Source: a virus. From it: a stretch of 33,541 nt of DNA. Shown in pieces: positions 12 through 31,272 of this stretch. How positions within the stretch are numbered: the first letter of the stretch is position 1; each line of letters opens with the position of its first letter. The notes beneath the pieces are model-generated. The model did no database searches and was not told the origin of the DNA. It saw only the letters and a list, made by a program, of their open reading frames with translations. The stretch spans positions 1-33,541 of the IMG/VR virus record IMGVR_UViG_3300010354_000311, one strand, 5' to 3'. A program made the position numbers and the translations under genes.

Positions 12-3000
12 ATGAGAGTTGCTTTTCAAGAGGTTGTCAAGGCTCTTCCGAATGCTAAAACATTGGTGCAAGACCAGGATGCACAAAAATATTTTGTTAG
101 TTTGTCTACTGATAAGGCTTTGTTTCAAAAGAAATTAGAAGAGGCTAAAGACGACTTCCAGAAGAAATTAATCGAGGAAAAAATAAAAAGTATCGATAAA
201 AAACTTGGCGATGTTGCAGCCGGAAAACCTCTTCAGTTAACAAGGGTCAAATTTAAAGATGGAAGTAGTGTAGTTATTTCTAATGAAGATATGGTTAATC
301 GCTATATCAAGGACCCAAAAATGATGGAGAACCTTACTTCTGAAGGAATAACAGTAGAAACACAAGATCCTGCAATTACCAAAGCTATAGAAGAAAAGAA
401 AAAGTCAAACGAGAAAGAATTACAAGAAGCAACTGATAAAGGAGCAAAACAACTTGGTGGTGTTCAAACTATAGCAAGAGATAAAGGTGCTACCCTAGAG
501 GATCAAGATAAACTGAACGAAGTAGCAGCAAAAGCCACAAGTAATGGTCAAGCAAATACTAATCTTATTCTCAACGAGGCTGTTACATTGCAACGTGCTT
601 TAGAGCAAGTTGCTCCAGGTGCTAGGATTGTTTTCATGAACAATGAAGAGTTTAACGAGGTTGTGCCTCAGCTAGGTGGCAAAAGAGAAAGTGCCGGTAA
701 CTTTGCGTACAGAAAAAATGAAGATGGAAGTTATAGTGTAGAGGTACAAATAAACTTAGATAAAGCAAATAGCACTACCCTTGCTCACGAAATAGGACAC
801 GTTGTTCTACTTAGAACATTGGGCTCAGATCCCAAACTTTTCAACGATATGCGTACTAAGTTGAAAAAGACAATCGAGGGAACTGTAAAGAACGATGTAC
901 TGAGAACAATCGATACTTTAGTAAATGAGTATAAGACAAACGAGCAAGCTGAAGAGTTCTTGGTGGAGTTAACTTCTACTTTGAGACTTAATGCACAGAA
1001 ATTAGAAATAAGCACCCTTGAGAAAATAGCCAAGGTTATCTCTGATTTTGTTGCCTATGTAACAGGCGGACAGGTTCAGATATTCAATGAGATTCAGACT
1101 CGTGCTGATTTCACTGAGTTTATAAATGGTATGACCGAGACATTGCGTACCGGTGAAATTGCAAAACCCTTACAAAGAAAAATCGATGCCGTTCAAGAGC
1201 AAGAAGCAGGTCAAGTACCTGTACAGCCAGAAGCCGGAGTTAGCCAAGAGGTGGCGGAAGGAGCACCCCAAACAGAACCTCAAGTCGCTGCCGAACAAGG
1301 TCAAGAAGAAGTAGCATCCCAAATTCAAGATGCAGAAGTAAAAATTGTTACACCAAATAACGAAGAGACTGAAGTTGGTGATGTTATAGTTAGTGGTTAC
1401 GTTAATCCAAATGAGGTTAGAAGTAAATCGCAACTCGCAAAAGTTTTTCAGCCTGTAGAAATTTCATGGGAAGTAGACCCAGAAAGCGGTATTCAATTAC
1501 AAGTCCCAGAAGAAAGAAAATCTTTCTACGATGTCGTTTCTGAAAGTGGAGGAGCAGTAGTTGTTGCAAATTCTGATGGTACAGGAATTGGTAAAGTTGT
1601 TGACGGACAAATATTACAAGGAGGAATTGGTTACTCATTTATAGCTGAAAATGTTTTAGAAAATATTGGCTTTGCTGCATCAGATGATACTAAAATTCCT
1701 TCAATATGGGAAGCAGCACAAGAAGCAGCTAAATTGAGAGATCAGCAAAATCCTGAGATGAAAGGAAGTCCTGTAGCTGTTTTTGTAATGGTTCAAGAAC
1801 CTAGTGCTACTTTTGGAAATGCTTATGCTGCTACATATTTTGGAAATGTGTTGAAAGCTATTAGTAAAGATAAAGGCTATCAAACAACTAAAGCTAAAAA
1901 TGAACTGATTGAATTTATCAATGATTTTAGGACAAATAATAATACCGGAAGAAAATATAATGATGCATTTGCTGAACTAATTAGTATTATTAGAAATACA
2001 GATTTTACAAAACCTGAAGCTATAGATAAAATTACTCAAACTCTTATTACCGAAAAGAAAAGAGGATTACCTAAAAATGCAGATAGACAAATCATTGCTG
2101 AAAACAATAAGCGTTTTGGTTTTGATGTAAGAAGAGCTTTTTTTGAAAAGTTTTTTGTTGGTGTTGGTAAAGCAAATTCTAGCCAACCAGCAAATGAACT
2201 AAGAAATTACCTTAAAGAAAAAGGTTTTGGTCATGAAAATTTCTTTGAAAAATATGTGGACGAGAACATTATGAAAAGCCTTCAAGGAGAAACGCCAGGT
2301 AAAAGATTATCAGATGGCGGTTTTGCTATGACAGGTTTCTTTGTTGATCCAAATATGAGCAAAGATGCGTTTATAAATGAAAGTAAAACTGGAACATATC
2401 AACACAAACAATTCAATTCTAGATTTTTTGGCACGAATCCGTTTGTTTTAAATGGGAAATACTATGTAAACGAAATGCTTCCTGAAGCACGTTTTGTTTC
2501 AAAAGAAGGTAAAGATGTCCCTGTTCAAGCATCTGCTGCAATGTCTTTATACCCAAGAACTAGAAGAGGCGAAACTGCTAATATTATTGAAAGGTCTAGA
2601 GAAATTGCAAACTCGCCACAGAATTTGAAAATGGCAGATGAGAACTTTGGTACTGAAGATGGAAAGGCTAACTTCCAATCAAAAGCACAATATAGCCCTA
2701 AAGAATTAAGTACTCTTTCTGAGACCATCTCTAATCGATTCGATGAAGCCCAACTAGAGAATCTTAAAAAGATGATTAATCAGGGAGTTACAGCACCTCA
2801 GAATACTACAAAAGCCTATAAATTATTCAAGGTTAAGAAGAATTTCCCCGGGGAACTATTCCCATTATTTGTAGGTGCTAATGAATCTGTTACTACAGGT
2901 GATTGGATAGCAGCAAAAGTTGGAGAATTGACTCAGACCAAAGAGGGTAAAACCATGGTTAAGTCGACACTTGGTCCTTTGGCTTTCAGACCGGGTTGGC

Positions 3001-6000
3001 ACTCTGGTGATATAGCTGTTGCTACTCACATTGGAGCTAAGAAAAATGCGTCTGATAAAGCACCTACATTAAGAGCGGATGATCAAGTTTGGGCCGAAGT
3101 CGAAGTAGGTAATGATGTTGACTGGCAGACCGAAGCGAACAATAGAGCTGAGAAAACCAAAGACGGAAAAATTTTACCTAGAACTGCTCATATCACAGAC
3201 CAGGTTCCATCGGGAGGTAATTACAAATACAAAACCAATTCTAATATGACCGGAAGTTGGATTATTTCCGGAGAGATGAAGGTGAACAGAATTTTGACCG
3301 ATGCTGAAGTTGAACAGATAAATAAAGAGGCAGGCGCAAAAGATTTGCCGAGAACTAAACCTTTTGATTTTGCTGCTTACGGATTCAATTCGGACGGAAC
3401 CGTTGCAAACCCCAAACAAGTGTTAGCTAATCAAGTAGCAAGAGCGTACTTGAATGCGAAAGAAACAGGTACGAATCAAGAATTAGTTGATGCTGTTGAT
3501 ATGAAACGGCCTCAGCCTGAATTCAAAAGCAAAGCACAGTTAGATTTTACACAAATCCGTCCTGAGTTTGATAACGTAATGAATCAGACCAACGGAAACA
3601 AAGTTGCTGCATATACCGCTTTGGTAGAAAAAGGCTACACACCTAAGAGAATCAAGGAAGCCATTGGTCTGTACGATTTTGATGAGACAGCGTTCAAGCA
3701 GGCTCAATCGCAGATTGCTATTAATACCTTGGACAAAATTGGAACTACGTTTTCAGATCGCCAGGAACTTATTAAGCAGGAGATTAACAATAATCTCGGT
3801 AATGTGGAAAGCATTTACGAAGATTTGATTGCCCAGGGCTACAGCAATTTGGAAATCTTTACTGCTGCTAGAGACATGGATTTCTTGTCTCCTCAGGATC
3901 TTGTGGACATCTTTGGTGCTGAGTATAGACAGACAGTTCAAAATGCTATCAATTCTAAAACACAATATCCGGCTGACTTTTTGGATGAATTAGAAGCTGA
4001 TGCTAGAACTCTGAAAGTAACCCAAACGGCCTCAGAAATTACCGATGTAATAAGAGAAACCGGAATCGGGTTGGTAGATAGTGCTGTTACCATAGATATG
4101 TTCTTAGAGTACCTCAAAACCAATGGCTTTGATCAGATTGCCATTGCTCTGACAAACGGAGTAAAGCAGTTTGCCCAGGATAGAGGTATGTTTGACAAGA
4201 CAGCAGATTGGGTTGATATGGTAAACTCAGGACAGGTGGGTAATGAAATGTATTCTCCTGAGGCCATCAATTATGCATTCAGCGTATCTTCAGAACTCTT
4301 TAGCCAGGCAGGTCGCATTCTTCAGATGGCACGTTTCTTCAATGAGGCAAATACCATGAGCGTAATTGAAAAAACACTAGCCAACAATGGAGTAGTTCTT
4401 ACCGAGCAGCAGAGAAAAACATTAGAGGGCCTTGTAAACGATTATAAAGCAGCTCAGAAGGACAATAAGGCCAAGTTGGAAGCACTACAAACAGATTGGA
4501 GCGATAATGCCTACAATGCGTTTTGGGAGAGCGAGAAGGCTGTCGGTATGGCAACCATCAGAGTTGCTCAGTTCCTTGAGGCCAGGAAGCCAATATTCTG
4601 GAACGAGAGAATCACATCCGGTGCTGCTAGAGGTCTTTTGAACTTGACCACTACAATACTCAGTTTAACTGCGAACATTGAAAACAATATTTACAGTACA
4701 AACTTTGTAACTAGAGCCATTCAGAAATTAAGAGATTCTTTGGGCAGTGGAATAAAAGGAAATACGCTTAGCATTAGCAACTGGCAGATGGCTAGAAAAC
4801 TGACTAGCAAGCGTATGTGGTTCGATATGAACAAGAACGCTATGTATGGTGTGATGGATACTAGCAATGGTTTGAACAAGTACTACGACAACTTGGCTCA
4901 AGTTAACTTCTTTAAAGATGTAAAATGGGTTTATAATTTCTCCAAAACCATGGTTGGTAAAGTTCTTAATAAGGACTGGGAAAGCATGACACCTGAAGAA
5001 CAGGCCGATGCTTTTGATTTGACTTTGGTTAAACTTAAAAATGGCGATATTGAACTCAGAGATGGAAAAACATACACCTTTGCTCGTTCTTTAGCATGGA
5101 CATTGGGTACAGGCCCAGCCCTTTCTATTGCAACCGGCAATCCATGGATGCTGTTAAACACCGGAGGTCCATTGCTTTCTGAGATAACAGGACGTGCCAT
5201 GGCATATGGTGGTGATATTGCTTTTGGTTACATGGCAGCCCAAAGAGCCATGATTGATTACTTCCAAAACATTCAAGGCACACGTTTCCAGGATGGTATT
5301 TTTGATGGTATGTTCAAAAATGCAGATGGAAAACTGGATGAAAACACAATTAGGGCAATGAGTCAGATTCTCTTGGCTGATAGTGAGTTATATGCTCGTT
5401 TTGAACAGGAAGGTTTGAAGAGAACTTTGTTGGCTAACAACCCTATTTCCGGAATGATTTCTTTGGGTAGAGGTCAATTGCGCAAAGGAATCCGTAATTT
5501 ATATACTGAAAATCGTGTACAAATAGGTGGTTCAAATTTATTTGGCGAGGCTCGTAGAGAATTCTTAACCTTAAGAGGTTTAGGAAAAAATGCATTACAA
5601 TTAACAGATGTTGCTTTGTTTACTCTTATGCCATTTACAAAAGTACCCGTGAACTTCTTAGGCTCGGCTATTGCAAAAGTTGTTCCGGCTGTAGCAATGA
5701 GTAAATATGCAATGTCAGAAATAGCTTATCAGTATAAATGGAAACAATTCAACAAAGAATATCCTATCGGTAAAAAACTCAAAAACGATAAGGAAAGAAG
5801 AGACTACGAAAAAGCCAAAATCGAAATATTTGCTGCTAAAAGACAAGCCACTTATGATGCTGCTCAGGTAGCAACAAGTTTTGCGATCTACGGTTTTGCA
5901 ATGTCAGCTGTACAGGCAGGTGCGATTTTGACAAGTGACGGAGGAGATCCTGAAAAAGAAAAAGCTCTGAAAACATTTGGTCTCAGAGGAGGTCTCTATA

Positions 6001-7280
6001 ACGCTAGTTTGCATTGGGAATATTTAACTTCTAAAAACAAAACTAATTTCTTGGCTCGCAGAGGTGGGTATGCTAAACCAGGCGATAAGATATTGAGCAC
6101 TGCTAACGCTGGTTTCTTAGGATATGCGTTTAACTTGTATGGAAGCACTATTGATGCACAAAGAAAACAAGAAGCGAATAATGTAATAGAACTATTGAAT
6201 ACTCAAAAGGGCGCACTAAGCACACTATTTAGTACTTCTTTAGCTTCTAGTATCGAAGGCTTGCCTATGTTCCAAGGTGTTGCTCGTATTGGAGAATTGT
6301 TCAACGATGTAAAAAATCCTGAGACCGAGAAGAATGCATTTACCAATTTTGCTGCTGGTAGTTTGAGTACTTCCATGGCTGTATTCTTTCCATCTTTCTT
6401 CTCTTTCATGTCAAAAGGAAATGCTGAAATGGTGCAGAGTGCAAATGAAATAAACATTAGAATGGAAAACGCTAGTTGGCTTTCGTTCTGGGGTGATGTA
6501 ACACTTCGGGTTGTTCAGAAATTAAATCGTAATGTTTCATTTAATCCAGAAACTCGTAACGAGTTTTATGAAGCAGCAATAGGACCGTTCGGAGAAGATT
6601 TAAGTTATAGAGTAACTGTAGGTGAACCTGGAACTGCTAGGGCATTTATTCAATCTGTGTGGAATCCTTTCTCGTTTAGAAAATTCTCTTCCCCTGCTAA
6701 AGAACAGCAGAAAGAAATACAAGTTTATAGACAATCTATGGAAGTTTATGGTGGTTTAGTAAACTTGTCTTTGATTTATAGTCAGATGACAGGAAGAGAC
6801 TATGAATGGACTGCTACAGGTAAAACATCTGGTATGTTTGGTATTATTACCAACCCGATGAAAAATAAACTTGTATGGACTCAAGAAAGCACTTTAAGCG
6901 GTGCAGATGCTCCTAATGTTTACAAAGGATTTACCTATCAATTACCTAACGATTTGTATCGCCAGGAACTAAAAATAAGAGGCGAACGATTCAGAAGTGC
7001 TTTAGAAAAATATGGTGCAGATACTAAAGATGTAATAGCTAAAGTACAAACCCTTGTTAATCAAGAAAGAATAGAAGAAGCCAAAGCTGAGATTGTTAAC
7101 TTGTTTAGTAGATATCAAAACGATTTAGTTCAGACTCAGGCATCTTATATGCAAGATTACAGAAACAATAGAGAAAGAGGGTACTTAAGAACTATAAAAC
7201 AACGTGGTCTTCTTAGTCCTCAGGAGATTCAAGATATGATAAAAGTTGGACTTGCGGACGAGAATGGTTTGATAGATTAA
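12..7280 (+). CDS. giant polyvalent-type virion protein with metallopeptidase motif (probably 5'-partial)
   Basis: A 2422-residue reading frame from the first ATG. The frame is open to the window edge, so the true start may lie upstream. Residues 259-263 are HEIGH, a zinc-metallopeptidase motif, and an acidic EEFLVELTS stretch about 50 residues later could give the third zinc ligand (gluzincin pattern). A Pro/Gln/Glu-rich linker (about 390-440) separates this from a long unrecognised region. A conserved-looking domain near residue 985 has RPGWHSGD followed by VWAEVEVG and GSWIISGEMKV. The C-terminal 900 residues are helical with many hydrophobic Gly/Ala-rich stretches (for example around LGTGPALSIATG and LMPFTKVPVNFLG) and end in charged coiled coil. 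Size, domain chaining and position before fibre genes fit the large polyvalent proteins of phages, which are packaged and ejected into the host. I infer that role; there is no RNA polymerase DxDxD motif, so it is not an obvious virion RNA polymerase. Confidence 0.7.
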   Translation: MRVAFQEVVKALPNAKTLVQDQDAQKYFVSLSTDKALFQKKLEEAKDDFQKKLIEEKIKSIDKKLGDVAAGKPLQLTRVKFKDGSSVVISNEDMVNRYIKDPKMMENLTSEGITVETQDPAITKAIEEKKKSNEKELQEATDKGAKQLGGVQTIARDKGATLEDQDKLNEVAAKATSNGQANTNLILNEAVTLQRALEQVAPGARIVFMNNEEFNEVVPQLGGKRESAGNFAYRKNEDGSYSVEVQINLDKANSTTLAHEIGHVVLLRTLGSDPKLFNDMRTKLKKTIEGTVKNDVLRTIDTLVNEYKTNEQAEEFLVELTSTLRLNAQKLEISTLEKIAKVISDFVAYVTGGQVQIFNEIQTRADFTEFINGMTETLRTGEIAKPLQRKIDAVQEQEAGQVPVQPEAGVSQEVAEGAPQTEPQVAAEQGQEEVASQIQDAEVKIVTPNNEETEVGDVIVSGYVNPNEVRSKSQLAKVFQPVEISWEVDPESGIQLQVPEERKSFYDVVSESGGAVVVANSDGTGIGKVVDGQILQGGIGYSFIAENVLENIGFAASDDTKIPSIWEAAQEAAKLRDQQNPEMKGSPVAVFVMVQEPSATFGNAYAATYFGNVLKAISKDKGYQTTKAKNELIEFINDFRTNNNTGRKYNDAFAELISIIRNTDFTKPEAIDKITQTLITEKKRGLPKNADRQIIAENNKRFGFDVRRAFFEKFFVGVGKANSSQPANELRNYLKEKGFGHENFFEKYVDENIMKSLQGETPGKRLSDGGFAMTGFFVDPNMSKDAFINESKTGTYQHKQFNSRFFGTNPFVLNGKYYVNEMLPEARFVSKEGKDVPVQASAAMSLYPRTRRGETANIIERSREIANSPQNLKMADENFGTEDGKANFQSKAQYSPKELSTLSETISNRFDEAQLENLKKMINQGVTAPQNTTKAYKLFKVKKNFPGELFPLFVGANESVTTGDWIAAKVGELTQTKEGKTMVKSTLGPLAFRPGWHSGDIAVATHIGAKKNASDKAPTLRADDQVWAEVEVGNDVDWQTEANNRAEKTKDGKILPRTAHITDQVPSGGNYKYKTNSNMTGSWIISGEMKVNRILTDAEVEQINKEAGAKDLPRTKPFDFAAYGFNSDGTVANPKQVLANQVARAYLNAKETGTNQELVDAVDMKRPQPEFKSKAQLDFTQIRPEFDNVMNQTNGNKVAAYTALVEKGYTPKRIKEAIGLYDFDETAFKQAQSQIAINTLDKIGTTFSDRQELIKQEINNNLGNVESIYEDLIAQGYSNLEIFTAARDMDFLSPQDLVDIFGAEYRQTVQNAINSKTQYPADFLDELEADARTLKVTQTASEITDVIRETGIGLVDSAVTIDMFLEYLKTNGFDQIAIALTNGVKQFAQDRGMFDKTADWVDMVNSGQVGNEMYSPEAINYAFSVSSELFSQAGRILQMARFFNEANTMSVIEKTLANNGVVLTEQQRKTLEGLVNDYKAAQKDNKAKLEALQTDWSDNAYNAFWESEKAVGMATIRVAQFLEARKPIFWNERITSGAARGLLNLTTTILSLTANIENNIYSTNFVTRAIQKLRDSLGSGIKGNTLSISNWQMARKLTSKRMWFDMNKNAMYGVMDTSNGLNKYYDNLAQVNFFKDVKWVYNFSKTMVGKVLNKDWESMTPEEQADAFDLTLVKLKNGDIELRDGKTYTFARSLAWTLGTGPALSIATGNPWMLLNTGGPLLSEITGRAMAYGGDIAFGYMAAQRAMIDYFQNIQGTRFQDGIFDGMFKNADGKLDENTIRAMSQILLADSELYARFEQEGLKRTLLANNPISGMISLGRGQLRKGIRNLYTENRVQIGGSNLFGEARREFLTLRGLGKNALQLTDVALFTLMPFTKVPVNFLGSAIAKVVPAVAMSKYAMSEIAYQYKWKQFNKEYPIGKKLKNDKERRDYEKAKIEIFAAKRQATYDAAQVATSFAIYGFAMSAVQAGAILTSDGGDPEKEKALKTFGLRGGLYNASLHWEYLTSKNKTNFLARRGGYAKPGDKILSTANAGFLGYAFNLYGSTIDAQRKQEANNVIELLNTQKGALSTLFSTSLASSIEGLPMFQGVARIGELFNDVKNPETEKNAFTNFAAGSLSTSMAVFFPSFFSFMSKGNAEMVQSANEINIRMENASWLSFWGDVTLRVVQKLNRNVSFNPETRNEFYEAAIGPFGEDLSYRVTVGEPGTARAFIQSVWNPFSFRKFSSPAKEQQKEIQVYRQSMEVYGGLVNLSLIYSQMTGRDYEWTATGKTSGMFGIITNPMKNKLVWTQESTLSGADAPNVYKGFTYQLPNDLYRQELKIRGERFRSALEKYGADTKDVIAKVQTLVNQERIEEAKAEIVNLFSRYQNDLVQTQASYMQDYRNNRERGYLRTIKQRGLLSPQEIQDMIKVGLADENGLID

Positions 7281-7878: not shown

Positions 7879-8264
7879 TGAATTACGCTACTATATATAG
7901 TTATATTGGTACTTACTTAGCGGTGAGGAAGGCTATTGTTAGTAATGAGGCCGAAATTCAAGCTGATATGAAGTATGATCGTCCATGCTGCCAAAAAGAA
8001 TGGTCTCAGAAAAAAGGCTTATTTCTATTGTGGACATTGGAGAATATCGATTGTTATAACGATACAACAACAGATAAGGTTATTTCTGTGGCAAATAGAT
8101 GGACTAAGAATTGTGGTAATTGTTCTGTGACCCAGGCTGAGATTGACGCTTTTCTACTTACTCCCAAAGGAATAGAGTTAAAAGCTAAAGCCGTTAGCAA
8201 CGGATATATTGTAACTACAGCCGGAACCTGGACAATATATAATACCGGCTATCAAATTATTTAA
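7878..8264 (+). CDS. hypothetical protein, Cys-containing, coupled to upstream virion gene
   Basis: 128 residues from the ATG that overlaps the preceding stop by one base (TAATG). A TTG six bases upstream would add two residues but is less likely. Six cysteines fall in PCCQKEW, IDCYND and NCGNCS, which could form disulfides or a metal site. The C-terminal stretch (residues about 100-128) is Thr/Gly/Tyr-rich. I do not recognise the family. Coupling to its neighbour and position next to the fibre genes suggest a virion or virion-assembly role, which is inference. The next gene begins two bases after its stop. Confidence 0.6.
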   Translation: MNYATIYSYIGTYLAVRKAIVSNEAEIQADMKYDRPCCQKEWSQKKGLFLLWTLENIDCYNDTTTDKVISVANRWTKNCGNCSVTQAEIDAFLLTPKGIELKAKAVSNGYIVTTAGTWTIYNTGYQII

Positions 8265-8266
8265 CA

Positions 8267-9019
8267 ATGGCATTTGAGGTAACAAGACAGGAACTGCTAA
8301 AACAGGCCAATGATTTGTTACAGCAGTATAAAAAGAATCGTGATCCTGAGCTAAAGGCACAGGAAGTTAGGATAAGAAAGATTGTTGCTGATTTAGATTT
8401 TATTGCTACCACTGGGTCTCAGAACCTGCAACAAACCACAGATTTAGGATCGACTACAACTAATTCGATTACTGCAAATGCCTTTATCAAATCCGGAGGT
8501 ACGGCTGCTCAGTTTTTAAAAGCTGATGGTAGTGTAGATAATAATGTATATTTAACCGCTACTTCTTTTAAATACGGTGCTTTCTATGATACATCAAATC
8601 AATCGATAGCTTTGGCATATGAAGAAAAAATAGTAAACATAAATACTACTTCTTATTCAAATGGTGTTACTCTTGGAACAAATGAGTTATTATTTTCTAC
8701 TGCCGGAGTTTATAATATTCAAGTTTCTTTGCAAATTACAAATAGACATAACCAAGATCAATTATTTTATCTGTGGTTTAGTCGCAACGGAACAGCAATA
8801 GCAGATTCTACTTCTATTGTCAGCGTACCTAGTACACATGGTGGTGTCAATGGACATTATATTTTATCTATGAATTTGTTTCAGCAAGTTAATCCTTTGG
8901 ATAATATAAAAATGCATTGGACTGCTGACCACAATGGAGTTGGAATTGAAACACTTGTGCCTGGCTTCGGGACTCTTCCGAATGCTCCATCTGTAATAAT
9001 TACAGCAACTCAAGTATAA
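8267..9019 (+). CDS. fibre/tip protein with C1q/TNF-like jelly-roll C-terminus
   Basis: 250 residues. Residues 1-45 form a charged helix, probably coiled coil. They are followed by a linker with the phrase FIKSGGTAAQFLKADGSVD, which recurs in phage fibre proteins. Residues about 100-250 form a beta-rich domain (ELLFSTAGVYNIQVSLQI, FYLWFSRNGTAI, HYILSMNLFQQVNPLDNI) with the hallmarks of C1q/TNF-like jelly rolls used as trimeric tips of fibres. The likely job is receptor contact or tail decoration on the virion. It starts two bases after the preceding stop and is followed by a new promoter in front of the large repeat fibre. Confidence 0.7.
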   Translation: MAFEVTRQELLKQANDLLQQYKKNRDPELKAQEVRIRKIVADLDFIATTGSQNLQQTTDLGSTTTNSITANAFIKSGGTAAQFLKADGSVDNNVYLTATSFKYGAFYDTSNQSIALAYEEKIVNINTTSYSNGVTLGTNELLFSTAGVYNIQVSLQITNRHNQDQLFYLWFSRNGTAIADSTSIVSVPSTHGGVNGHYILSMNLFQQVNPLDNIKMHWTADHNGVGIETLVPGFGTLPNAPSVIITATQV

Positions 9020-9050
9020 TTGTTATTTTTGAATATTTTTCGTAACTTTG
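9020..9050 (+). promoter_or_regulatory. Bacteroidetes-type promoter, TTG-N20-TAACTTTG
   Basis: TTG at 9020-9022, exactly 20 bases, then TAACTTTG at 9043-9050; the ATG of the repeat fibre gene follows after four bases (9055). The stretch from 9040 through the first codons is nearly identical to 7288-7310. Confidence 0.7.
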
Positions 9051-9054
9051 AATT

Positions 9055-10821
9055 ATGGCACTAACATTCGGAGATTTCCTCTCAATATTTACTACAAACG
9101 ATCCTAGCGGTGGCAGGGCCATCAAGGCTACTTTTGACACCGGCATAGATGACGCAGCAAATTATTTGACTAAAAGTGATCCTGCTGGTGGTCGTGCGAT
9201 AAAAGTTATAAATGTAGGGGCTCCGCTTGGGCCTCAGTTCTGGGGCGAAGCATATAACGCAGGTACACAAGCTACTTCTTCTTGGACACCTGCTGGTGCT
9301 GCTACTAATATAAATGCTGCTATTGTTCCTAAAGGCACAGGTGCTATTGTTGCTGATATTCCCGATGGAACTGCAACAGGTGGTAGTGCAAGGGGTGCTT
9401 ATGCAGTTGATTTGCAGATAATAAGAAATGCTGCTACTCAAGTTGCAAGTGGAGTAAGTTCTTTTGTTGGAGGAGGACAAAATAATACCGCTAATGCTGA
9501 AGGTAGTTCTGTGGTCGGAGGATATCAAAACACGGCATCAAGATTGTATAGTGCAGTTGTTGGCGGAATATTCAACACGGCATCGGGGTTTTATTCTTTT
9601 GTTGGTGGAGGTTATGGTTGTTCTGCCACAGGCAGTGATGCCTCCGTGTGTGTAGGTGGTGTGGGTAACAGTTCTCAATCTCAAGCAGCTTTTGTTGGAG
9701 CAGGTAATGCCAATACTGCAAATAACCAATATGCAACAATTACAGGAGGTCAATCCAACACGGCATCGGGGCAATGGAGTACTATAGCTGGAGGAAGACA
9801 GAACACTGTTTCGAATACTTACGCAACAATAGCCGGAGGTTATCTCAACCAAGCAACAGGCTATACTAGTTTTATCGGAGGCGGTGAACAAAACTTTATT
9901 CAATCTGTAAGCACAGGGGGTAATACTATAGCAGGGGGTGTTTCAAATTCTTTATCAGGAACAGACAATACCGCTTTTAGATTTATTGGTGGCGGAAATC
10001 GCAATACAATGAACGCTGATCAAACCGCAGGGGCAACTATTTGCGGTGGGTTTGGTAATACGATTTATAACAGTAGCAAAGGTGGATTTATTGGTGGCGG
10101 TGGTAACGGTATGTTTCCAGGGGGTAATTTTTTGTGTGGAGATAATTCATCTATCGTAGGTGGTGTTTATAATAGAATAGGAAACGGAACATTTGCTCAA
10201 GCAAATAATGCGTTTATAGGTGGAGGTGTTTCTAACATAATAGACACTAATGCTGATTTTTCTGTAATATCCGGTGGCGATAGCAATATAGTCCGTAGTA
10301 GCATTGTTGGGGCTATCATTACAGGTGGCATTGGAGGTGCTGCTTCTCTTTACGGACAACAAGTACACGCATCGGGCCAATTTTCTGCTCAAGGAGACGC
10401 TCAAGCACACGAACTTATTTGGAGACGTGCTATAACAGGAATTACTGCTACTGAACTTTTCTTAAATGGTTCTTCACTTCAAGCTATACTTCCTGGAACT
10501 AATTCTGTATGGCATGGTATTATAGATGCAGTTGCAATCTGCACTACAACAGGAGACGGCACTACAACCGTAGGGGAAGTAGAAGCCACTTCTTTCAAGG
10601 TAACTATAAAAAGAATCGGCACTGCTACATCACTCGTAGGAACTGTTCAAGAGATTGGAACTACGAATGCTGATGCTACAATGGCTACCGCTTCATTTTC
10701 AATCGACAATGACGATACAAAAGAAGCACTCAGAATTCGTTTCACTCCTCCGGCTACAGCAGGATCTACTACAGTGATTCGTGTTGTTGCCACATTTAGA
10801 GGCACACAAATTCAATATTAA
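9055..10821 (+). CDS. tail fibre / receptor-binding protein with YadA-head-like repeats
   Basis: 588 residues. The N-terminus carries a short internal duplication (NDPSGGRAIKATF and SDPAGGRAIKVIN), probably the virion attachment part. Residues about 130-440 are some 16-17 imperfect repeats of 14-18 residues with the pattern IxGGxxNTASGxxS, as in the beta-roll heads of YadA-type trimeric adhesins and in other phage fibres. Some repeats are also close at DNA level (AACACGGCATC recurs three times). The C-terminal 130 residues (LIWRRAITGITATELFLNG, then IRVVATFRGTQIQY) resemble a recurrent fibre tail domain. The protein is expected to be trimeric and to determine host binding. It has its own promoter. 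Confidence 0.8.
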   Translation: MALTFGDFLSIFTTNDPSGGRAIKATFDTGIDDAANYLTKSDPAGGRAIKVINVGAPLGPQFWGEAYNAGTQATSSWTPAGAATNINAAIVPKGTGAIVADIPDGTATGGSARGAYAVDLQIIRNAATQVASGVSSFVGGGQNNTANAEGSSVVGGYQNTASRLYSAVVGGIFNTASGFYSFVGGGYGCSATGSDASVCVGGVGNSSQSQAAFVGAGNANTANNQYATITGGQSNTASGQWSTIAGGRQNTVSNTYATIAGGYLNQATGYTSFIGGGEQNFIQSVSTGGNTIAGGVSNSLSGTDNTAFRFIGGGNRNTMNADQTAGATICGGFGNTIYNSSKGGFIGGGGNGMFPGGNFLCGDNSSIVGGVYNRIGNGTFAQANNAFIGGGVSNIIDTNADFSVISGGDSNIVRSSIVGAIITGGIGGAASLYGQQVHASGQFSAQGDAQAHELIWRRAITGITATELFLNGSSLQAILPGTNSVWHGIIDAVAICTTTGDGTTTVGEVEATSFKVTIKRIGTATSLVGTVQEIGTTNADATMATASFSIDNDDTKEALRIRFTPPATAGSTTVIRVVATFRGTQIQY

Positions 10822-10825
10822 TCAT

Positions 10826-10833
10826 TAACTTTG
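10826..10833 (+). promoter_or_regulatory. probable -7 element TAACTTTG before the 10843 gene
   Basis: TAACTTTG lies nine bases before the ATG at 10843, in the short gap after the fibre gene. No good TTG was seen 19-21 bases upstream, so this is weaker than the other promoters. Confidence 0.4.
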
Positions 10834-10842
10834 TAAATAATC

Positions 10843-11333: not shown

Positions 11334-11625
11334 TCGTTTAGCTAGGGCTGGGGTCTCAGGGTTTAATCAGCCCAAGAGAACTCCAGGCCATCCCACCAAA
11401 AGTCACATCGTAGTGGCTAAGCAGGGAGACCAGGTTAAGACCATTCGCTTCGGTCAGCAGGGTGTTAAGACCAATCAGACAGCAGGACAGCGTGAGGCAT
11501 TTAAATCACGCCACGCTAAGAATATTTCTAAGGGTAAAATGTCTGCTGCTTATTGGGCCGATAAAGTTAAGTGGAGTCCTAGTAAGACTGCTTCTCCAAG
11601 CAAAAAATGGAAAAAAGGAAGTTAA
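11311..11625 (+). CDS. small basic phage protein with RHAKNI...AAYWADKVKW motif
   Basis: 104 residues from the ATG at 11311, inside the end of the holin-like gene; an in-frame TTG at 11305 is less likely. The protein is strongly basic. It carries RTPGHPTKSHIVVAK, then IRFGQQGVKT, then SRHAKNISKGKMSAAYWADK, a pattern I recognise from many marine and cyanophage genomes, where its function is not established. It opens a run of very small basic proteins; DNA binding or packing is an inference from charge only. Confidence 0.7.
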   Translation: MKTPKKDSRLARAGVSGFNQPKRTPGHPTKSHIVVAKQGDQVKTIRFGQQGVKTNQTAGQREAFKSRHAKNISKGKMSAAYWADKVKWSPSKTASPSKKWKKGS

Positions 11626-11643
11626 AAATAATTTAAAAATCAT

Positions 11644-11843: not shown

Positions 11844-11846
11844 AGT

Positions 11847-12116: not shown

Positions 12117-12259
12117 TGAAACCTGAGACCCATCCTATACTCGTTGGTAAGACACCTGAAACTATTGCCAAGTTAACCGGCAAAAAAGTTGTGGTTGTAA
12201 CTCCTTTTGATATTGCTGGCGAAGCCTGGATGACTGTCAAACCCAAATCAAAGAAATAA
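12116..12259 (+). CDS. 47-aa microprotein paralogous to the end of its neighbour
   Basis: A short frame starting in the TAATG overlap and ending TAA at 12257-12259; the next gene begins five bases later, so it fills the gap exactly. It opens MKPETHPILVGKTPETIAK, matching HPVLVGKTPTTVEK at the end of the preceding protein, which indicates a tandem duplication. The tail is basic (VKPKSKK). The start contains one GGTCTCAG octamer on the opposite strand. Function unknown. Confidence 0.55.
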   Translation: MKPETHPILVGKTPETIAKLTGKKVVVVTPFDIAGEAWMTVKPKSKK

Positions 12260-12263
12260 TAAA

Positions 12264-13527: not shown

Positions 13528-13559
13528 TTTGCTTTTGCTTGGGGCTCAGAGTATATTTG
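13528..13559 (+). promoter_or_regulatory. Bacteroidetes-type promoter, TTTG-N20-TATATTTG, for mazG-nrdJ
   Basis: TTTG 13528-13531 begins right after the preceding stop; exactly 20 bases separate it from TATATTTG 13552-13559. The ATG of the MazG-like gene follows after seven bases. It should drive the MazG and RNR genes, which are two bases apart. Confidence 0.7.
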
Positions 13560-17594: not shown

Positions 17595-17874
17595 GCTCAG
17601 CGAGGAAGATGCAATCGAGAGATTGAAATTGCAGGAGTTTGATCCTGCCAAGGATTTCTATGCAACTTTGGTCTCAGCATCTAAGCAGCTAATGGACTCG
17701 GTTAAAGATAAGAGTTTGGACCTAGATGATGCATATCAGAAAGGTCTGTTTCAGCTGCTCCAGGCAGGCGATAAGATTAACAAAAGTCTGAAACTCGCTA
17801 AACTAGAAGCGTATCCTGAAGAGCAAGTAGATGACGAGGGTTCTTTCCTTGATCGTGTGAGTCAGAAACGATGA
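17491..17874 (+). CDS. probable terminase small subunit or C-terminal part of it (no ATG start)
   Basis: An open frame of 127 codons with no ATG; possible starts are TTG at 17491 or 17503, or entry by a +1 shift from the 17406 frame. It is helical and charged (LSEEDAIERLKLQEF, KQLMDSVKDKSLDLDDAYQK) and ends in an ATGA overlap with the large terminase. Position and composition fit the DNA-recognition subunit of the packaging motor, but no sequence motif proves it. The overlap contains A-runs and a CTTAGA where slippage could occur; an assembly indel is the plain alternative. Confidence 0.5.
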   Translation: MTIQLKQTKLRKKLKNKKEESANLEKLSEYLRANKLSEEDAIERLKLQEFDPAKDFYATLVSASKQLMDSVKDKSLDLDDAYQKGLFQLLQAGDKINKSLKLAKLEAYPEEQVDDEGSFLDRVSQKR

Positions 17875-19679: not shown

Positions 19680-19968
19680 GGTAATTCACACGCATCTTCT
19701 CTAGATAAATACTCAGCACGTCAATAGTCTGGTCCGATAAGGTATCTCCGTCCATGACTATCGGAATCTTCACATCCTTTATGTAATGCACAACCAGGAA
19801 TCCACGCACAGGACGAGTCTTAAACTTCCTCCTGAGCGTGGGCACTACAACCTGGACGTGCTTCTCAAATTTAGGGGCAAAGCATAGTGGCTGAGAAATC
19901 AATTCTGATTTCAGAGCCAATAAGATTACCCGGAGATCTATCCCATAGTGTGGGATATTTATCTTCAT
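19609..19968 (-). CDS. hypothetical protein coupled to PolB, overlapping terL antisense
   Basis: 119 residues from an ATG that overlaps the polymerase stop (ATGA); a longer frame from 20016 is less likely. It is a mixed alpha/beta protein (PHYGIDLRVILLALKSEL, VRGFLVVHYIKDVKIPIV, DVLSIYLEKMR). I recognise no family. Coupling to the polymerase suggests a replication accessory role. Its last 23 codons run opposite to the end of terL. Confidence 0.55.
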   Translation of the reverse strand: MKINIPHYGIDLRVILLALKSELISQPLCFAPKFEKHVQVVVPTLRRKFKTRPVRGFLVVHYIKDVKIPIVMDGDTLSDQTIDVLSIYLEKMRVNYPKPLPSSKHEHIVRFETQASEFL

Positions 19969-21893
19969 AGGAGACTCAATTGTTTCGGTTTGATTGTCTC
20001 TATCAGTTTGTAACATTCGTTTTCAAAAAATGAATAGTTAAGATTTTTCTTATCAAAGATTTCGATGGTATTGTACGGAATGGTCTGGTATCCCTCGCAC
20101 AGATGGTGTTCCCTGCCATCCTTGTTAACCTTCATGGAAACTCCACCTCGGAGTACCGGCAGGTAACGATAAATCTTTCCAAAGTCCATTCTCTTCTCCT
20201 GGCTACCGCTGAGATAAATGTATTCAACGTGCCATCCTAGGGATGCCTTATATCGTCCACAGAAGTCTAATATATTATCGTGGTTTCTCAGCGTGGTCTC
20301 AATTGGAGTCCCATTGACAAAATATTCACGCACAGCCAAGGGAACGACCATGAATGAGTTGTCCTTGTGCCAATCCTTCTTGGTCTCAAAGGTCCCTTTC
20401 TCTTTTATCTTTCCGGTCTCAGAAACAGCGATGTAATTATTCACATCCCGGATAATCATCTTCTCGTAATTGGCGTATTCAAGCGTAAGTTTGGTATCCT
20501 GCTCCCACTTCTTACATACAGCAAGTATTTGCTCTTCTTTGTTCCGTGGCATACTAATAGTCACACCATCGGTATTGACCTGAAGCAGTTCAGCTCCGTG
20601 CTTAACCAATTGTTCTACGAGCATGGATATAAACAATTGTCCGTTAACGGTAATTCCGTAGAAGACGAAAGGGTCATAGAAGCAGGACACATCAGATCCT
20701 GTCTTACCGAACATTCCGTTCAAGGCAAGTTTTAACGCATCAGAGGTCAAATCATCTCCGTCAATCTGTGCCTTGACTCTTTCGTTGAAAATGTCATTGT
20801 ATACGTTGACGAAAATGTCCTGGTCCATCTGCCGGGGATGTAGTCTATTTTGGATAAATAGATTTGGGTAATAAGATTTAACATCGATGTCGAGTATTTT
20901 GTATGTCTTGCTAGAAACGTATACTCCTGGCGATATACAGCCGTGGATTCCACCCACACCATACTCCAAATGGAGACCGGCATAGTTAATTGTGAACGAG
21001 AAACTTTTCTTCTGCTGAGCAATCCTTTGCACACGAATATTATTGTTCTGAAACTTCTCGAACAATTCATTGGTGGACATGGATGTATCGATGCCTTCGA
21101 CAAAGTTCTGCAAGTAATTACTTGAACTCACGGTCTCCTTCATCAGGCCGAGCAGACGATTGAATTCCGGGCTCTCGAACTTTACATTCGGCAGGATGAT
21201 ATCTTTCAGGGGAACATCAGAACGCTTGCCTCTGATCTCCTTCAATTCCTTAACAGGGATGCCCATACTTTCGCTCAAGTACTTCAGAAAGATTGATTCC
21301 CCGATAACCACATCGCTCTTGTTCAGCACGTTCATGTTATACTTCTTGCCAATCTTTTTACGCAGTTCAATCTTCTCGCTGCATTTCTCGTAGAACAGAG
21401 CAGTAAAGAGAACATCGTTCTTGTTGTACTCAAGCACCTTATTCAACTTGATGGAATCTACTTTTTCAGTATGGTGGAAAGGCATATCCATCACATTGTT
21501 CCATCCCAGGGAAACCTCTAAGGCTTTGAGTGAAGTTGATCGTGCTTTGTTATCGTAGTGGTTCAGCAGATACAAATCAAGTTGCGGTACATCCTGGCGA
21601 ACGTACTGCTTTTTATCCTGAGAAGTAATCTGTTGTGCTAGACCATAAATCTTTTCTGCCGTATCCACCTCGCCCATGTATATGGCACGGACGATGGGCC
21701 AGTCAAAGTTTATATTGTTGAATCCTACCATACCGGCCTTGCTCTTTATCAGAGACCCAATGTATTGTACGAAGGCTTCCCTATCGTTACGGAATTCACA
21801 GATTACAAATTCGTTGAATGTTTTGTCCTTTACATCGTAATCAATGTAAGTAAAGCAGTTGCTGAATGTTTCTATGTCGTATACTTTTATCAT
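19965..21893 (-). CDS. polB: family B DNA polymerase with 3'-5' exonuclease
   Basis: 642 residues. The exonuclease has Exo I YDIETF (residues 5-10), Exo II GFNNINFDWP (about 57-67) and Exo III YNKNDVLFTALFYE (about 155). The polymerase has motif A DIDVKSYYPNLF (about 334), motif B LKLALNGMFGKTG (about 386) and motif C VNTDGVTI (about 440). In motif C the usual DTDS is NTDG, as in many phage PolB enzymes. It is short for the family. It replicates the phage genome with the neighbouring primase-helicase. The start overlaps the stop of the small gene before it. Confidence 0.9.
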   Translation of the reverse strand: MIKVYDIETFSNCFTYIDYDVKDKTFNEFVICEFRNDREAFVQYIGSLIKSKAGMVGFNNINFDWPIVRAIYMGEVDTAEKIYGLAQQITSQDKKQYVRQDVPQLDLYLLNHYDNKARSTSLKALEVSLGWNNVMDMPFHHTEKVDSIKLNKVLEYNKNDVLFTALFYEKCSEKIELRKKIGKKYNMNVLNKSDVVIGESIFLKYLSESMGIPVKELKEIRGKRSDVPLKDIILPNVKFESPEFNRLLGLMKETVSSSNYLQNFVEGIDTSMSTNELFEKFQNNNIRVQRIAQQKKSFSFTINYAGLHLEYGVGGIHGCISPGVYVSSKTYKILDIDVKSYYPNLFIQNRLHPRQMDQDIFVNVYNDIFNERVKAQIDGDDLTSDALKLALNGMFGKTGSDVSCFYDPFVFYGITVNGQLFISMLVEQLVKHGAELLQVNTDGVTISMPRNKEEQILAVCKKWEQDTKLTLEYANYEKMIIRDVNNYIAVSETGKIKEKGTFETKKDWHKDNSFMVVPLAVREYFVNGTPIETTLRNHDNILDFCGRYKASLGWHVEYIYLSGSQEKRMDFGKIYRYLPVLRGGVSMKVNKDGREHHLCEGYQTIPYNTIEIFDKKNLNYSFFENECYKLIETIKPKQLSLL

Positions 21894-22114
21894 CTTAATC
21901 TATAAACTATTTGTGTGGCACACAGCGTACCTTCTTTGGCATCTATTTCGTTGTAGTAGAAATCTTTTATCTTAATCCAATTCTCACAGATGACAGGAAT
22001 CACTTTTCCATCATAAGTAAAATCCTTAGTTATCTTTTTAAAGTAGTGTGGCGATACGTTGAATATCATTACCTCTTCCCCACGAGCTTTGTGTCGTGAA
22101 CAGATTATTTTCAT
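21890..22114 (-). CDS. small hypothetical protein between primase-helicase and PolB
   Basis: 74 residues from ATG 22114; alternatives are 22129 (5 residues longer) and 22069 (59 residues, with a smaller overlap with the helicase gene). It contains EEVMIFNVSPHYFKKI, VIPVICENWIKIKDFYYNE and ends IVYRLR, a small mixed alpha/beta fold. No known family. It overlaps the end of the helicase gene and abuts the polymerase start, so it is part of the replication operon. Confidence 0.55.
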   Translation of the reverse strand: MKIICSRHKARGEEVMIFNVSPHYFKKITKDFTYDGKVIPVICENWIKIKDFYYNEIDAKEGTLCATQIVYRLR

Positions 22115-23777
22115 CAGAGTAAATATCATTTTTCAATTGCATTAGGTTTTGAAACTTTCCGTCCTCACTGTACTGGCCTGTGGTCCGGTTAAATTGGTAA
22201 TCGATTCTTCCAAGTTTACCCCGGAAATGCCACTTAATTTTCTGAATGTGAACCTCGACAGGATCATTGATTCCATTCTGGAACGAACGATGCACAGCAA
22301 CCCCGAAGTCAGGAACATTGAAGAAGTGATGCGATCCGCTGATATCGTACAGGCGTGGTACGTTATATCCGGCTGAGTTCTTATCCATCTTGCGAGGGTG
22401 GGCTACTAGCACTACACATACATTGTTCTTCACAGCAAATTTTTTTAATCTTCTCAGCAGACCACCGATTCTTTCGTTGGAACTTTCCTCGTCCCCATCC
22501 TGCTCAATATAATTGAATGGGTCCAGGCACAGACAATCGATGCCATGGCGTTTAACTAACATTTCGCCTAAGCGTAGCAGATTCGTAAGGGAGTAATCTT
22601 CCATGGTTTCCACATTGTAGAACCAAAAGTGTCTGTCGAGTATTTTTACAGCCTGCTCGACTTCCATCGGATTCATCTCATGTAAACCTTTATTGAGCAA
22701 TTGCTCGCTCATGCGTGTGATTTTCAAGGGTGCTACGTTCTCAGGGGAAAAGATTCCAAATTTCCAATTTTTCAAATAGGCAAGGCGCACAAACATATAA
22801 TCTAACCATGTGCTCTTCCCAGATCCTGGGATGCCCGTAACCACACCTAATTCACCACGATTCCACGAGATATGCTCATCGGTCTCAGACATATCGACCA
22901 GGGCTCCCACAGGATAGCCATCTGTCTGATACGATTGTATGGTGGACAGATAATCCATGGCAGAAGATATCTCTTCCACGGGAAGGGGTTTGGCATCGTA
23001 AAATAAACGTGCAATGAAGTCTTGTCCGTAGCGGAGCAAACAATCGTTAGCATCCTTCTCGCCCTCCGGAAACTCGATGATGCGAATGTCATGACTTGTG
23101 AACCTGCGTGCGATATCCTGGCGGAGTTTTCTGCCGGGCTCATCGTTATCGGTGGCTAAATAAATAATCTTATTTTCAAAAAGTTCGTAAGTAGAATCAA
23201 GCCAATCGAGGTTATTATTGTTGCGACTAGCACCGTTAGGCACAGAAACTGCTCGGAGGTCAGATTGATGCCATACCATTGTTTCTTCTTCTCCTTCGCA
23301 GATGATAACGTACTCTGAATCCTTGATTGAATCCACGTTATACGGAATCTTACGAGCATCTTTGACCATCTTGAACTTCTTGTCAGCGGTCTTGAATTTA
23401 ATATTGACAAGTTCTCCGTCCAGGTAATAATTAAAACAAATTGTTCTGTGTTCTTTCTGATCCTGAGGCATCCATTCCCGACCTTCAGTAATACCAAAAG
23501 AGTCTACTGTTGTGCGAGATATCTTTCTTTTTTCGAAATAATCGTATATGCCCTGGGTCTCAATAACTTTCCTGGGTTCGGGTCTCACATACTGATTAAC
23601 AGAACCAGACCAACCACAATGGTGGCACTTCCAAACCCCGGTATCTATGTTCACACCTAGGGATGGGTCTTTACTCTTCTTCCGGGTATGGGCACACTTA
23701 GGGCACAGGGTCTTAACCTCTCCGCTGTATCTATTTCGCAGGTCAATCCCTAACCGCACAAGCTTGTCCGAATTCAT
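22038..23777 (-). CDS. T7-gp4-type primase-helicase (Twinkle-like)
   Basis: 579 residues, close to T7 gp4 (566). The N-terminal zinc ribbon has C25-x2-C28 (LCPKCAHT) and C51-x2-C54 (WKCHHCGWSG). The Toprim primase core has VIICEGEEETMVW (about 150) and IIYLATDNDEPGRK (about 200). The RecA-like helicase has Walker A GIPGSGKST (about 310-318), Walker B CLCLDPFNYIE (about 425) and VVLVAHPRKM (about 465). It unwinds DNA 5'-3' as a hexamer and makes primers at the fork. It overlaps both neighbours, consistent with one replication operon with PolB. Confidence 0.9.
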   Translation of the reverse strand: MNSDKLVRLGIDLRNRYSGEVKTLCPKCAHTRKKSKDPSLGVNIDTGVWKCHHCGWSGSVNQYVRPEPRKVIETQGIYDYFEKRKISRTTVDSFGITEGREWMPQDQKEHRTICFNYYLDGELVNIKFKTADKKFKMVKDARKIPYNVDSIKDSEYVIICEGEEETMVWHQSDLRAVSVPNGASRNNNNLDWLDSTYELFENKIIYLATDNDEPGRKLRQDIARRFTSHDIRIIEFPEGEKDANDCLLRYGQDFIARLFYDAKPLPVEEISSAMDYLSTIQSYQTDGYPVGALVDMSETDEHISWNRGELGVVTGIPGSGKSTWLDYMFVRLAYLKNWKFGIFSPENVAPLKITRMSEQLLNKGLHEMNPMEVEQAVKILDRHFWFYNVETMEDYSLTNLLRLGEMLVKRHGIDCLCLDPFNYIEQDGDEESSNERIGGLLRRLKKFAVKNNVCVVLVAHPRKMDKNSAGYNVPRLYDISGSHHFFNVPDFGVAVHRSFQNGINDPVEVHIQKIKWHFRGKLGRIDYQFNRTTGQYSEDGKFQNLMQLKNDIYSDENNLFTTQSSWGRGNDIQRIATLL

Positions 23778-25013: not shown

Positions 25014-25326
25014 ATGAATCCTTTACTTCGGTTAACAATAAATACTCGTGTTCGAACTTCTCGTCCTGAGACCATTCCTCAGTCCTATCCAGGCTTTGCA
25101 GGATGGTGCAATGGTTCTTCAACCCGACAATCCTAGCGATGGTCTGTAACGTGAATTTGCCGTAGTTATGGAGCATATAAATAAATATATGTCTCAGCAT
25201 TACTTCCTCGGTGTTACGAGTTCTTTTACGTTCCCACAATTCTCGTGGTACTCCGGTGACATCTTCCATAGTCTCAATGATTCTGAGTCGGGTGTCGGTC
25301 TGCTGTCTGGTTTCTATGTATATCAT
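24970..25326 (-). CDS. DnaA-domain-IV-like DNA-binding protein
   Basis: 118 residues. The centre reads EEVMLRHIFIYMLHNYGKFT, then LQTIARIVGLKNHCTILQSL. This follows the DnaA C-terminal helix-turn-helix with its signature (R..iamYL....t...Ig..fg.rDHtTVlha), with NHCTIL in place of DHTTVL. DnaA domain IV binds DnaA boxes; here it stands alone, without the AAA+ ATPase. It probably recognises a phage origin or the host DnaA box. It starts one base after the stop of the small membrane protein upstream. Confidence 0.65.
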   Translation of the reverse strand: MIYIETRQQTDTRLRIIETMEDVTGVPRELWERKRTRNTEEVMLRHIFIYMLHNYGKFTLQTIARIVGLKNHCTILQSLDRTEEWSQDEKFEHEYLLLTEVKDSYEQRIGKSVDSLIG

Positions 25327-26662: not shown

Positions 26663-27329
26663 AGATGTTGTTATTTAGTATTTTTTGTATGGTTGATGCA
26701 TAGAATTTTCCGCTTTTAGATCCTTTAATCCCTTGCGAATTAAAGTGATTGGCAATCTGTCTCAAGCTGAGACCTTCTGCCTTCAAGGTAACGATGGTCT
26801 CCACCATTTCCATTTGCTTTGGGTCTCGGACCAATTGCCCATCCTGGTGCTTGAATCCAAGGGGAGGGAAAGCACAATACACCTTGCTGTTCTTCTTAAG
26901 ATTGTTTTTTACAGAACGTGTGTACTCTCCGGTAACATCGGATTGGTATTCAGCAAAGACAGCCATCAGGTTACGCATTGCCTTCCCGGAACTGCCACTC
27001 ATTTCGGGTTCCTCGATAGAATAGAACTTAACCTTTTTCTTTTCGAGATCAGCCATGTGGTTGATAAAGTCACGCAGATTCCTGGCGAAACGTGTCGAGT
27101 GCCACACGATAAGTGCTGAAACTCCACCTTTATTGATGCGTTTCATCATGTCCTGGAACCCTGGTCTATTGGTGTTCTTACCGCTGAATCCTGCATCAGC
27201 GTAGATGTCCTCAAGAACAAAGCCACGGCTCTCAGCGAATTCCTTAATGCGGTCTACCTGGTTCTCAAGGGATGTTCCTTTCTCCGCCTGCATATCGGTT
27301 GATACACGGATATATCCAATTGCCTTCAT
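26643..27329 (-). CDS. serine recombinase (resolvase/invertase type)
   Basis: 228 residues. The catalytic domain has AIGYIRVSTDMQ (R8, nucleophile S10), ENQVDRIKEFAESRG, DAGFSGKNTNRPGF, and WHSTRFARNLRDF with the active-site arginines. After the long E helix come PPLGFK, a short recombinase region and a helix-turn-helix (LSLRQIANHFNSQGI). It is much shorter than large serine integrases (usually over 450 residues) and lacks their zinc and coiled-coil parts. It may resolve genome multimers or act on a site not in this window. A ribbon-helix-helix-like gene overlaps its start by ATGA. Confidence 0.85.
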   Translation of the reverse strand: MKAIGYIRVSTDMQAEKGTSLENQVDRIKEFAESRGFVLEDIYADAGFSGKNTNRPGFQDMMKRINKGGVSALIVWHSTRFARNLRDFINHMADLEKKKVKFYSIEEPEMSGSSGKAMRNLMAVFAEYQSDVTGEYTRSVKNNLKKNSKVYCAFPPLGFKHQDGQLVRDPKQMEMVETIVTLKAEGLSLRQIANHFNSQGIKGSKSGKFYASTIQKILNNNIYELQNN

Positions 27330-29214: not shown

Positions 29215-29439
29215 TTAAAGGGTTTCTTCTACGTTATCTATTTCGACCAGGGTGCAGTAGTCCGGGAGATCCATGATGTGGATTCTGCCGTAGTTCATAC
29301 TGCTGTAATAACCCTGAAATTCATACTGCCTTACCCATTGTTGCAGAACTTCGTGTGCCTGTTCGGGTGTGCTGTAGGTGTCGCTGTGGTGGATGCTGAA
29401 CCCATCGGGACTCAGAACATCATATTGTTTATTGCTCAT
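29215..29439 (-). CDS. small hypothetical phage protein
   Basis: 74 residues from ATG 29439, which has GGAGG six bases upstream (also coding Gly-Gly in the preceding gene); an ATG four codons earlier is less likely. QYDVLSPDGFSIHHSDTYST, EVLQQWVRQYEFQGYYSS and a DYCTLVEID end match a recurrent phage pattern (GYYSS...GRI...L...CTLVE) of unknown function. Confidence 0.6.
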   Translation of the reverse strand: MSNKQYDVLSPDGFSIHHSDTYSTPEQAHEVLQQWVRQYEFQGYYSSMNYGRIHIMDLPDYCTLVEIDNVEETL

Positions 29440-29644: not shown

Positions 29645-29650
29645 CGTTTT

Positions 29651-30513: not shown

Positions 30514-30522
30514 GGTGTATTT

Positions 30523-31272
30523 TTATTTATTAATGGTGTTAAGGATGTGTTGGTAGTCTTCGTTTACGTTCTCAGCAGATAACTTATTCAGTATGGATTC
30601 GGGTAATTCGTAACCCAAATACTCGTCAAAATTGCGGTCTAAGTAGAAACCATCGTGCCTGGCTTCTGTGCATGGGGTCTCAGCAATACCATTTTTGAGG
30701 TATACAAGTTCACGTTCCCATCGTCCATCGTGGAATGTGGCTACATCATCCCAATCAGGACGATCGTATGACTGCACATCTTCGGATTCTCCCTTCACAA
30801 AGGTGTGAACCTCTCCGAATCCTTGATCCTCCTCCCAATGCCATATGAAATCCGGGAATTGCTCTGCAAACTTTTCAATGATTGCATAATCCATGGGACA
30901 CCAGGCTGTAGTGAATCGGAGTACATCGTATTCGAATTCATTTTCATAGCATCCCCATTTAGTTCCCCAATGGGTGTTTGCCCAATTGTACCAATTGTCA
31001 GTACCATACTTGCTGATCAAATCGTCCGACATCTGCTGTGTAATGTAGTAGTTTGGGAATTGGTCGGCAGACTTGTCTTCTGTCAGCCATTTTTGGTATT
31101 CGGTCTCAGACAGAATTCGTGATGGCGATGTGGTGTTGACCAGGGCTTTGGGCATCGGTTTGTAGTGACCGCACAATCCTTTTTTATTGGCAACAATTTT
31201 GTTTAGGATTGCTCTCTGCTTATCAGTTAGCGGAGAGGTAAATTCGATAGTGTGATAAACGTGGTTTGGCAT
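30523..31272 (-). CDS. Api92/YubB-like (DUF1281) ferredoxin-like fold protein
   Basis: 249 residues from ATG 31272 (the frame could extend to 31332, but that covers the promoter). It begins PNHVYHTIEF and has YNWANTHWGTKWGCYE, then LRFTTAWCPMDYAI and FIWHWEEDQGFGE, the W...NWGTKWD and TAW signatures of the Api92-like ferredoxin-fold family found in phages and plasmids. The role is unknown; the family often sits in anti-defence or early regions. A full promoter lies 29 bases upstream of the ATG. Confidence 0.7.
   Translation of the reverse strand: MPNHVYHTIEFTSPLTDKQRAILNKIVANKKGLCGHYKPMPKALVNTTSPSRILSETEYQKWLTEDKSADQFPNYYITQQMSDDLISKYGTDNWYNWANTHWGTKWGCYENEFEYDVLRFTTAWCPMDYAIIEKFAEQFPDFIWHWEEDQGFGEVHTFVKGESEDVQSYDRPDWDDVATFHDGRWERELVYLKNGIAETPCTEARHDGFYLDRNFDEYLGYELPESILNKLSAENVNEDYQHILNTINK

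Follow-up and report, generated by a model that had tools for sequence, protein, structure and literature searches.

An eight-letter word, GGNCTCAG, or GG-N-CTCAG, is dispersed, at roughly one copy per kilobase, through the genomes of one family of uncultured Bacteroidota phages, to which it is restricted. It is almost certainly a real signal that is kept by selection, and it is very likely a docking signal for a DNA-handling protein of this phage family, because the word is family-wide and selected and is absent at such a level from the hosts and outside phages tested. The stretch of DNA analysed, hereafter referred to as the window, is one record, 33.5 kb long, from an uncultured tailed phage; it encodes RNR, terminase, DNA polymerase and primase-helicase. 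Genome-wide selected DNA words are rare, and they have led to major machines, as with Chi and RecBCD, KOPS and FtsK, and the uptake sequences. GGNCTCAG, which was not found mentioned in the literature looked through, is exactly defined, deeply conserved and tied to a lineage, and could be used directly as bait in an affinity search for a new phage DNA machine with sequence specificity. If its reader belonged to the host, GGNCTCAG would be a Chi-type signal of aquatic Bacteroidota.

The word and its copies in the window

An earlier note on the window had claimed 17 copies of an octamer, GGTCTCAG, where fewer than one was expected by chance. Every coordinate and strand proved exact (11 plus, 6 minus). 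The chance expectation is 0.7 copies, and dinucleotide shuffles gave a mean of 0.68 and a maximum of 4. When 8-mers were ranked against an order-2 Markov model, GGTCTCAG was number one in the window, with 17 copies against 0.64 (z=20). The hexamer GGTCTC, claimed to occur at least 38 times with about 10 expected, was counted 39 times, and the expectation of about 10 was reproduced. However, the octamer is only part of the fuller word GGNCTCAG, of which the window has 29 copies. Because the third base of the motif is free, the match of GGTCTC to a type IIS restriction site, which had been offered as a point of interest, is incidental. The copies, with the genes and the promoter element that concern them, are as follows; GGGCTCAG, GGCCTCAG and GGACTCAG have another base at N.

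821..828, plus, GGGCTCAG
2719..2726, minus, GGTCTCAG
3508..3515, plus, GGCCTCAG
4028..4035, plus, GGCCTCAG
4258..4265, minus, GGCCTCAG
5979..5986, plus, GGTCTCAG
6319..6326, minus, GGTCTCAG
8002..8009, plus, GGTCTCAG
8415..8422, plus, GGTCTCAG
9230..9237, plus, GGCCTCAG
11352..11359, plus, GGTCTCAG, retained by 4 of the 5 relatives that align
12123..12130, minus, GGTCTCAG
13542..13549, plus, GGGCTCAG, intergenic, within a TTTG/TAnnTTTG promoter, in 21 of 21 relatives
13552..13559, plus, TATATTTG, -7 element of a Bacteroidota-type promoter (consensus, PMC6847099), directly 3' of the motif
13673..13680, minus, GGCCTCAG
14439..14446, plus, GGTCTCAG, in the RNR gene, near-universal (orthologous group in 21 of 23 records)
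14530..14537, minus, GGGCTCAG
15005..15012, plus, GGCCTCAG
16657..16664, minus, GGTCTCAG
17238..17245, plus, GGCCTCAG
17670..17677, plus, GGTCTCAG
17871..19679, plus, terminase large subunit (phrog_6681), query for finding relatives
17913..17920, plus, GGTCTCAG, at the terminase gene start
19196..19203, plus, GGACTCAG, in the terminase gene, near-universal (32 of 38)
19965..21893, minus, DNA polymerase (phrog_1252), query for finding relatives
20415..20422, plus, GGTCTCAG, 23 relatives align and none keeps the copy
22038..23777, minus, primase-helicase, in nearly all motif-bearing records, putative reader
22881..22888, plus, GGTCTCAG, antisense in the primase-helicase gene, near-universal (24 of 26)
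25066..25073, minus, GGTCTCAG
26767..26774, minus, GGTCTCAG
29408..29415, plus, GGACTCAG
30676..30683, plus, GGTCTCAG
31102..31109, plus, GGTCTCAG

The four near-universal sites (13542, 14439, 19196 and 22881) are all on the plus strand and may be partly constrained by protein or promoter; for those in the RNR, terminase and primase genes, the constraint may partly come from the protein. The site at 13542 sits between TTTG and TATATTTG of the promoter for a MazG-like gene, and in relatives its N is variable while the other motif bases are fixed.

Protein sequence had been claimed not to be the cause of the enrichment, and this holds. Sense copies occupy all frames, while antisense copies shun the one frame that would put TGA in frame. 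The 16 copies found in coding ORFs compare with a mean of 1.1 in codon-preserving shuffles of the window ORFs, which never gave more than 5, and a codon or protein origin of the motif was rejected. An inserted element or repeat was also rejected as the source of the copies. The flanks of the 17 GGTCTCAG copies are unrelated, with no common flanking homology, and in alignments of relatives gaps opposite motif copies (7.0%, compared with 5.8% for controls) are not notably raised; therefore, the copies arise by substitution.

Distribution and selection in the phage family

The enrichment persists throughout related uncultured phage records. In 38 of them (828 kb) there are 624 copies of GGNCTCAG, an over-representation of 14x and a density of 0.75 per kb, while thirty letter-permuted control words have a mean of 27 and a maximum of 77. 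GGTCTCAG, GGCCTCAG, GGGCTCAG and GGACTCAG, which cover all four bases at N, are each among the top 8-mers in relatives. All clades of the family (terminase 59-92% identical) are enriched about 8-19x: 13x at 78-92% terminase identity, 19x at 70-75%, 14-15x at 62% and 8x at 59%. Outside the family, phages linked to it by no more than a 32-35% identical primase show no enrichment (0.5x), and Cellulophaga phi38:1 and phi14:2, Flavobacterium FCL-2 and crAss001 are at about 1x or less. A triple-motif scan of viral contigs matched repetitive genes only.

Single-base changes at the fixed positions mostly lower the observed to expected ratio from 14 to about 1, with residual enrichment for A7C (3.9), G8C (3.0) and A7G (2.7). 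The base at -1 sets the enrichment of GGNCTCAG (G 43x, C 29x, T 5x, A 1.6x), an A at +1 gives 25x, and T is preferred at -2 and +2. The best context is T-S-GGNCTCAG-A-T, where S is C or G. The extended form SGGNCTCAGA has a density of 0.41 per kb in the phages.

The earlier description of a genuine, dispersed and non-palindromic signal can be extended, as the signal is also selected and conserved in relatives. In pairwise alignments at 65-70, 70-75 and 75-80% DNA identity, 34, 49 and 64% of motif copies are retained, respectively, versus 5, 7 and 13% of control words, so that motif copies are kept 5-8x better than controls. Since alignment pairs overlap, retention was also counted once per orthologous group, which gave 0.22 for the motif and 0.05 for controls. 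Singletons make up 214 of the 303 orthologous groups; therefore, individual sites are gained and lost at a steady density. In 9 of 10 records the copies are spaced more evenly than at random (Fisher combined P=2e-4), and copies are equally common within genes and between genes.

The 11:6 strand split noted earlier in the window is correct in its counts and not significant on its own. The raw plus to minus ratio is about 2:1 in long records, and 184:119 when orthologous groups are counted by strand. Strand-specific base composition explains most of this family-wide asymmetry. The late structural module alone departs from strand composition (orthologous groups; P=0.05 and 0.01), and even its strong bias is mostly explained by composition (GC skew 0.12); outside this module the split is no different from composition. 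Enrichment across regions is 17-24x on the plus strand and 8-17x on the minus strand, i.e. both strands are enriched 8-24x in every region, which was also the outcome of the check for primase-site polarity. Plus-strand genes have 240 sense versus 103 antisense copies (observed to expected ratios of 14 versus 8), and minus-strand genes have 120 versus 104.

Host and neighbouring genes

Shine-Dalgarno sites are rare in these phages (12 of 296 ORFs), and TAnnTTTG is found 11-20 nt upstream of ATG in 56 of 296 ORFs (eight records). TAnnTTTG is the -7 element of Bacteroidota promoters, and Bacteroidota are without Shine-Dalgarno sites (PMC6847099). From these two features we infer that the host is probably a Bacteroidota bacterium. 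Among the named relatives nearest to the primase, at 31% identity, are those of Cellulophaga and Flavobacterium phages. The phage collection searched held no close cultured relative, and a polymerase search of genome contigs for a host gave no match.

We counted GGNCTCAG or SGGNCTCAGA in about 760 distinct Bacteroidota genomes, from two phylum draws that largely overlap. None came near the phage density; the phage's own host may lie outside this sample, and a host enrichment of about 2x (E. coli-like, 2.3x) could go unnoticed with the reversed-pattern control. The outlying genomes were rejected as candidates, since composition or a repeat accounts for them. One genome, G122 (144:25), shows no excess against the Markov expectation, and three others (G053, G049 and G047) are at 0.9x. 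In another, G118 (60:6), the counts come from an interspersed GGGTCTCAGA repeat, many copies of which lie at contig ends and which seems to be a repeat family with no relation to the phage motif. Runs of plus-strand matches in host genomes were an artefact of matches being ordered forward-first.

Some neighbouring genes can be described. A replication protein is encoded at 24708-25013. A very basic 91-aa protein (13252-13527, phrog_6437) is kept in divergent clades even where it is relocated; its model is helix-strand-strand-helix (pLDDT 73), and an HNH-like assignment was dropped, as the model had no structural match with E<=0.001. A 106-aa protein (11305-11625, phrog_7595) is 77-91% identical family-wide, much more conserved than the terminase. 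A small serine recombinase (26643-27329), which adjoins an Arc-like repressor, is 65-82% conserved in long records, and in the most divergent clades the neighbourhood of the terminase shows none. Two short cytosine-methyltransferase-like proteins of 212-220 aa, with PPC and ENP motifs, are encoded at 27956-28594 and 31690-32352; one or both are missing in some relatives, and they have no room for a normal recognition domain. Relative L108 has a homing-endonuclease-like gene (4013-4732) that adjoins a 648-aa ORF. Relative L099 has, at 8230-12637 and on one strand, 15 copies of AACGTAGG and 11 of ACTAGTCC with a period of about 250 bp, which are probably a repetitive structural gene.

Possible readers and rival explanations

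The earlier note compared the octamer to Chi, KOPS, uptake-type signals and modification targets. The Chi-like form has been borne out; the KOPS-like polarity, the host-wide uptake or Chi word and the modification target have not. We tentatively favour a mechanism in which GGNCTCAG works in a Chi-like way for a lineage-specific, most likely phage-encoded, DNA-handling protein. The next most likely explanation, though a rather unlikely one, is a host Chi, the signal of an AddAB/RecBCD-type nuclease, of which the phages would gather copies so that their DNA is recombined and not degraded. The form fits, as the motif, like E. coli Chi (GCTGGTGG), is short, non-palindromic, intragenic and phage-enriched, is evenly spaced on both strands, and has a plausible link to recombination. 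Moreover, Chi is over-represented in lambdoid phages without RecBCD inhibitors, including those with their own recombinase (PMC3784561), and the present family encodes a RecE-like exonuclease. A literature search for a Bacteroidota Chi found none. Lambdoid Chi, however, reaches about 2.4x and 0.2 per kb (PMC3784561), far below the 14x and 0.75 per kb of the motif, which also has a longer context, has no demonstrated host enrichment and is bound to one phage lineage. The four cultured Bacteroidota phages are not enriched, and the candidates among the approximately 760 genomes fail against the Markov expectation. These genomes are without comparable enrichment and so give no support to a Chi, KOPS or uptake word used host-wide.

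A stoperator-like set, in which prophage transcription would be silenced by a phage repressor bound to the dispersed sites, an arrangement known from cluster A mycobacteriophages, is improbable. Cluster A stoperators (PMC6550527, PMC9283540) resemble the motif in being dispersed, asymmetric and lineage-specific, with a similar number of sites (tens) per genome and one at a promoter; here, the -33 and -7 elements of a promoter flank one universal copy, and an Arc-like repressor gene adjoins the serine recombinase gene. But most stoperators have the same orientation with respect to transcription, and their motif drifts with the repressor (PMC6550527), whereas the orientation of the motif is nearly free, with no dominant direction relative to transcription. 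The motif is not concentrated between genes, genic copies being as frequent as intergenic ones, and it stays constant over deep divergence with no matching conserved repressor, the Arc-like protein being only 21-78% identical or absent. The polymerase search of the genome collection found no relative. Still less probable is that the two cytosine-methyltransferase-like proteins use the motif as a target for modification or self-marking, although both are encoded and widely conserved. Relative G010 lacks both genes, with the flanking genes present, and keeps full motif density (0.89 motifs per kb), and therefore this reading is not supported; relative G006 lacks one of them. In addition, 212-220 aa would leave little room for a recognition domain, and marking alone would not select for more sites or for even spacing. 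The lowest probability falls to a word of the uptake (DUS/USS) or KOPS type that the phages took over from their host. Like the motif, uptake words are enriched, dispersed and evenly spaced, with a sharp core, weaker flanks and turnover at constant density. In the host chromosome, however, their density is no lower, and the motif is found in a phage family, while no sampled Bacteroidota genome carries it at high density. KOPS requires strong polarity, and beyond the late module the motif has no such polarity, its strand preference there being small.

In the favoured Chi-like mechanism, a putative reader specific to the phage lineage would recognise GGNCTCAG genome-wide. A short, non-palindromic word, mostly intragenic and in both orientations, would be sampled wherever the machine happens to be. 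The reader would be encoded by the phage and may act in replication or recombination. More tentatively, the word may be a phage-encoded Chi analogue, tolerant of orientation and built by this one family into its genes, that serves the phage's own replication, recombination or DNA-organising machine independently of the host. The reader may instead belong to a host from an unsampled clade. Candidate readers are the primase-helicase, the polymerase and a RecE/YqaJ-type exonuclease. Genes for the first two are present in nearly all motif-bearing records. Known phage primases, however, read about 3 nt, far fewer than the GGNCTCAG site, which counts against a primase reader. At the sites the exonuclease would either pause or load recombinase. 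It is 66-87% conserved where records extend to its region; those of the divergent clades stop short of it. Lambda exonuclease pauses sequence-specifically at GGCGA (PMC7496540), a word that, like the motif, a phage recombination exonuclease could sense, and the present family has a RecE/YqaJ enzyme. The discussion of GGCGA there concerns one cos end and makes no mention of genome-wide enrichment, whereas the motif is genome-wide.
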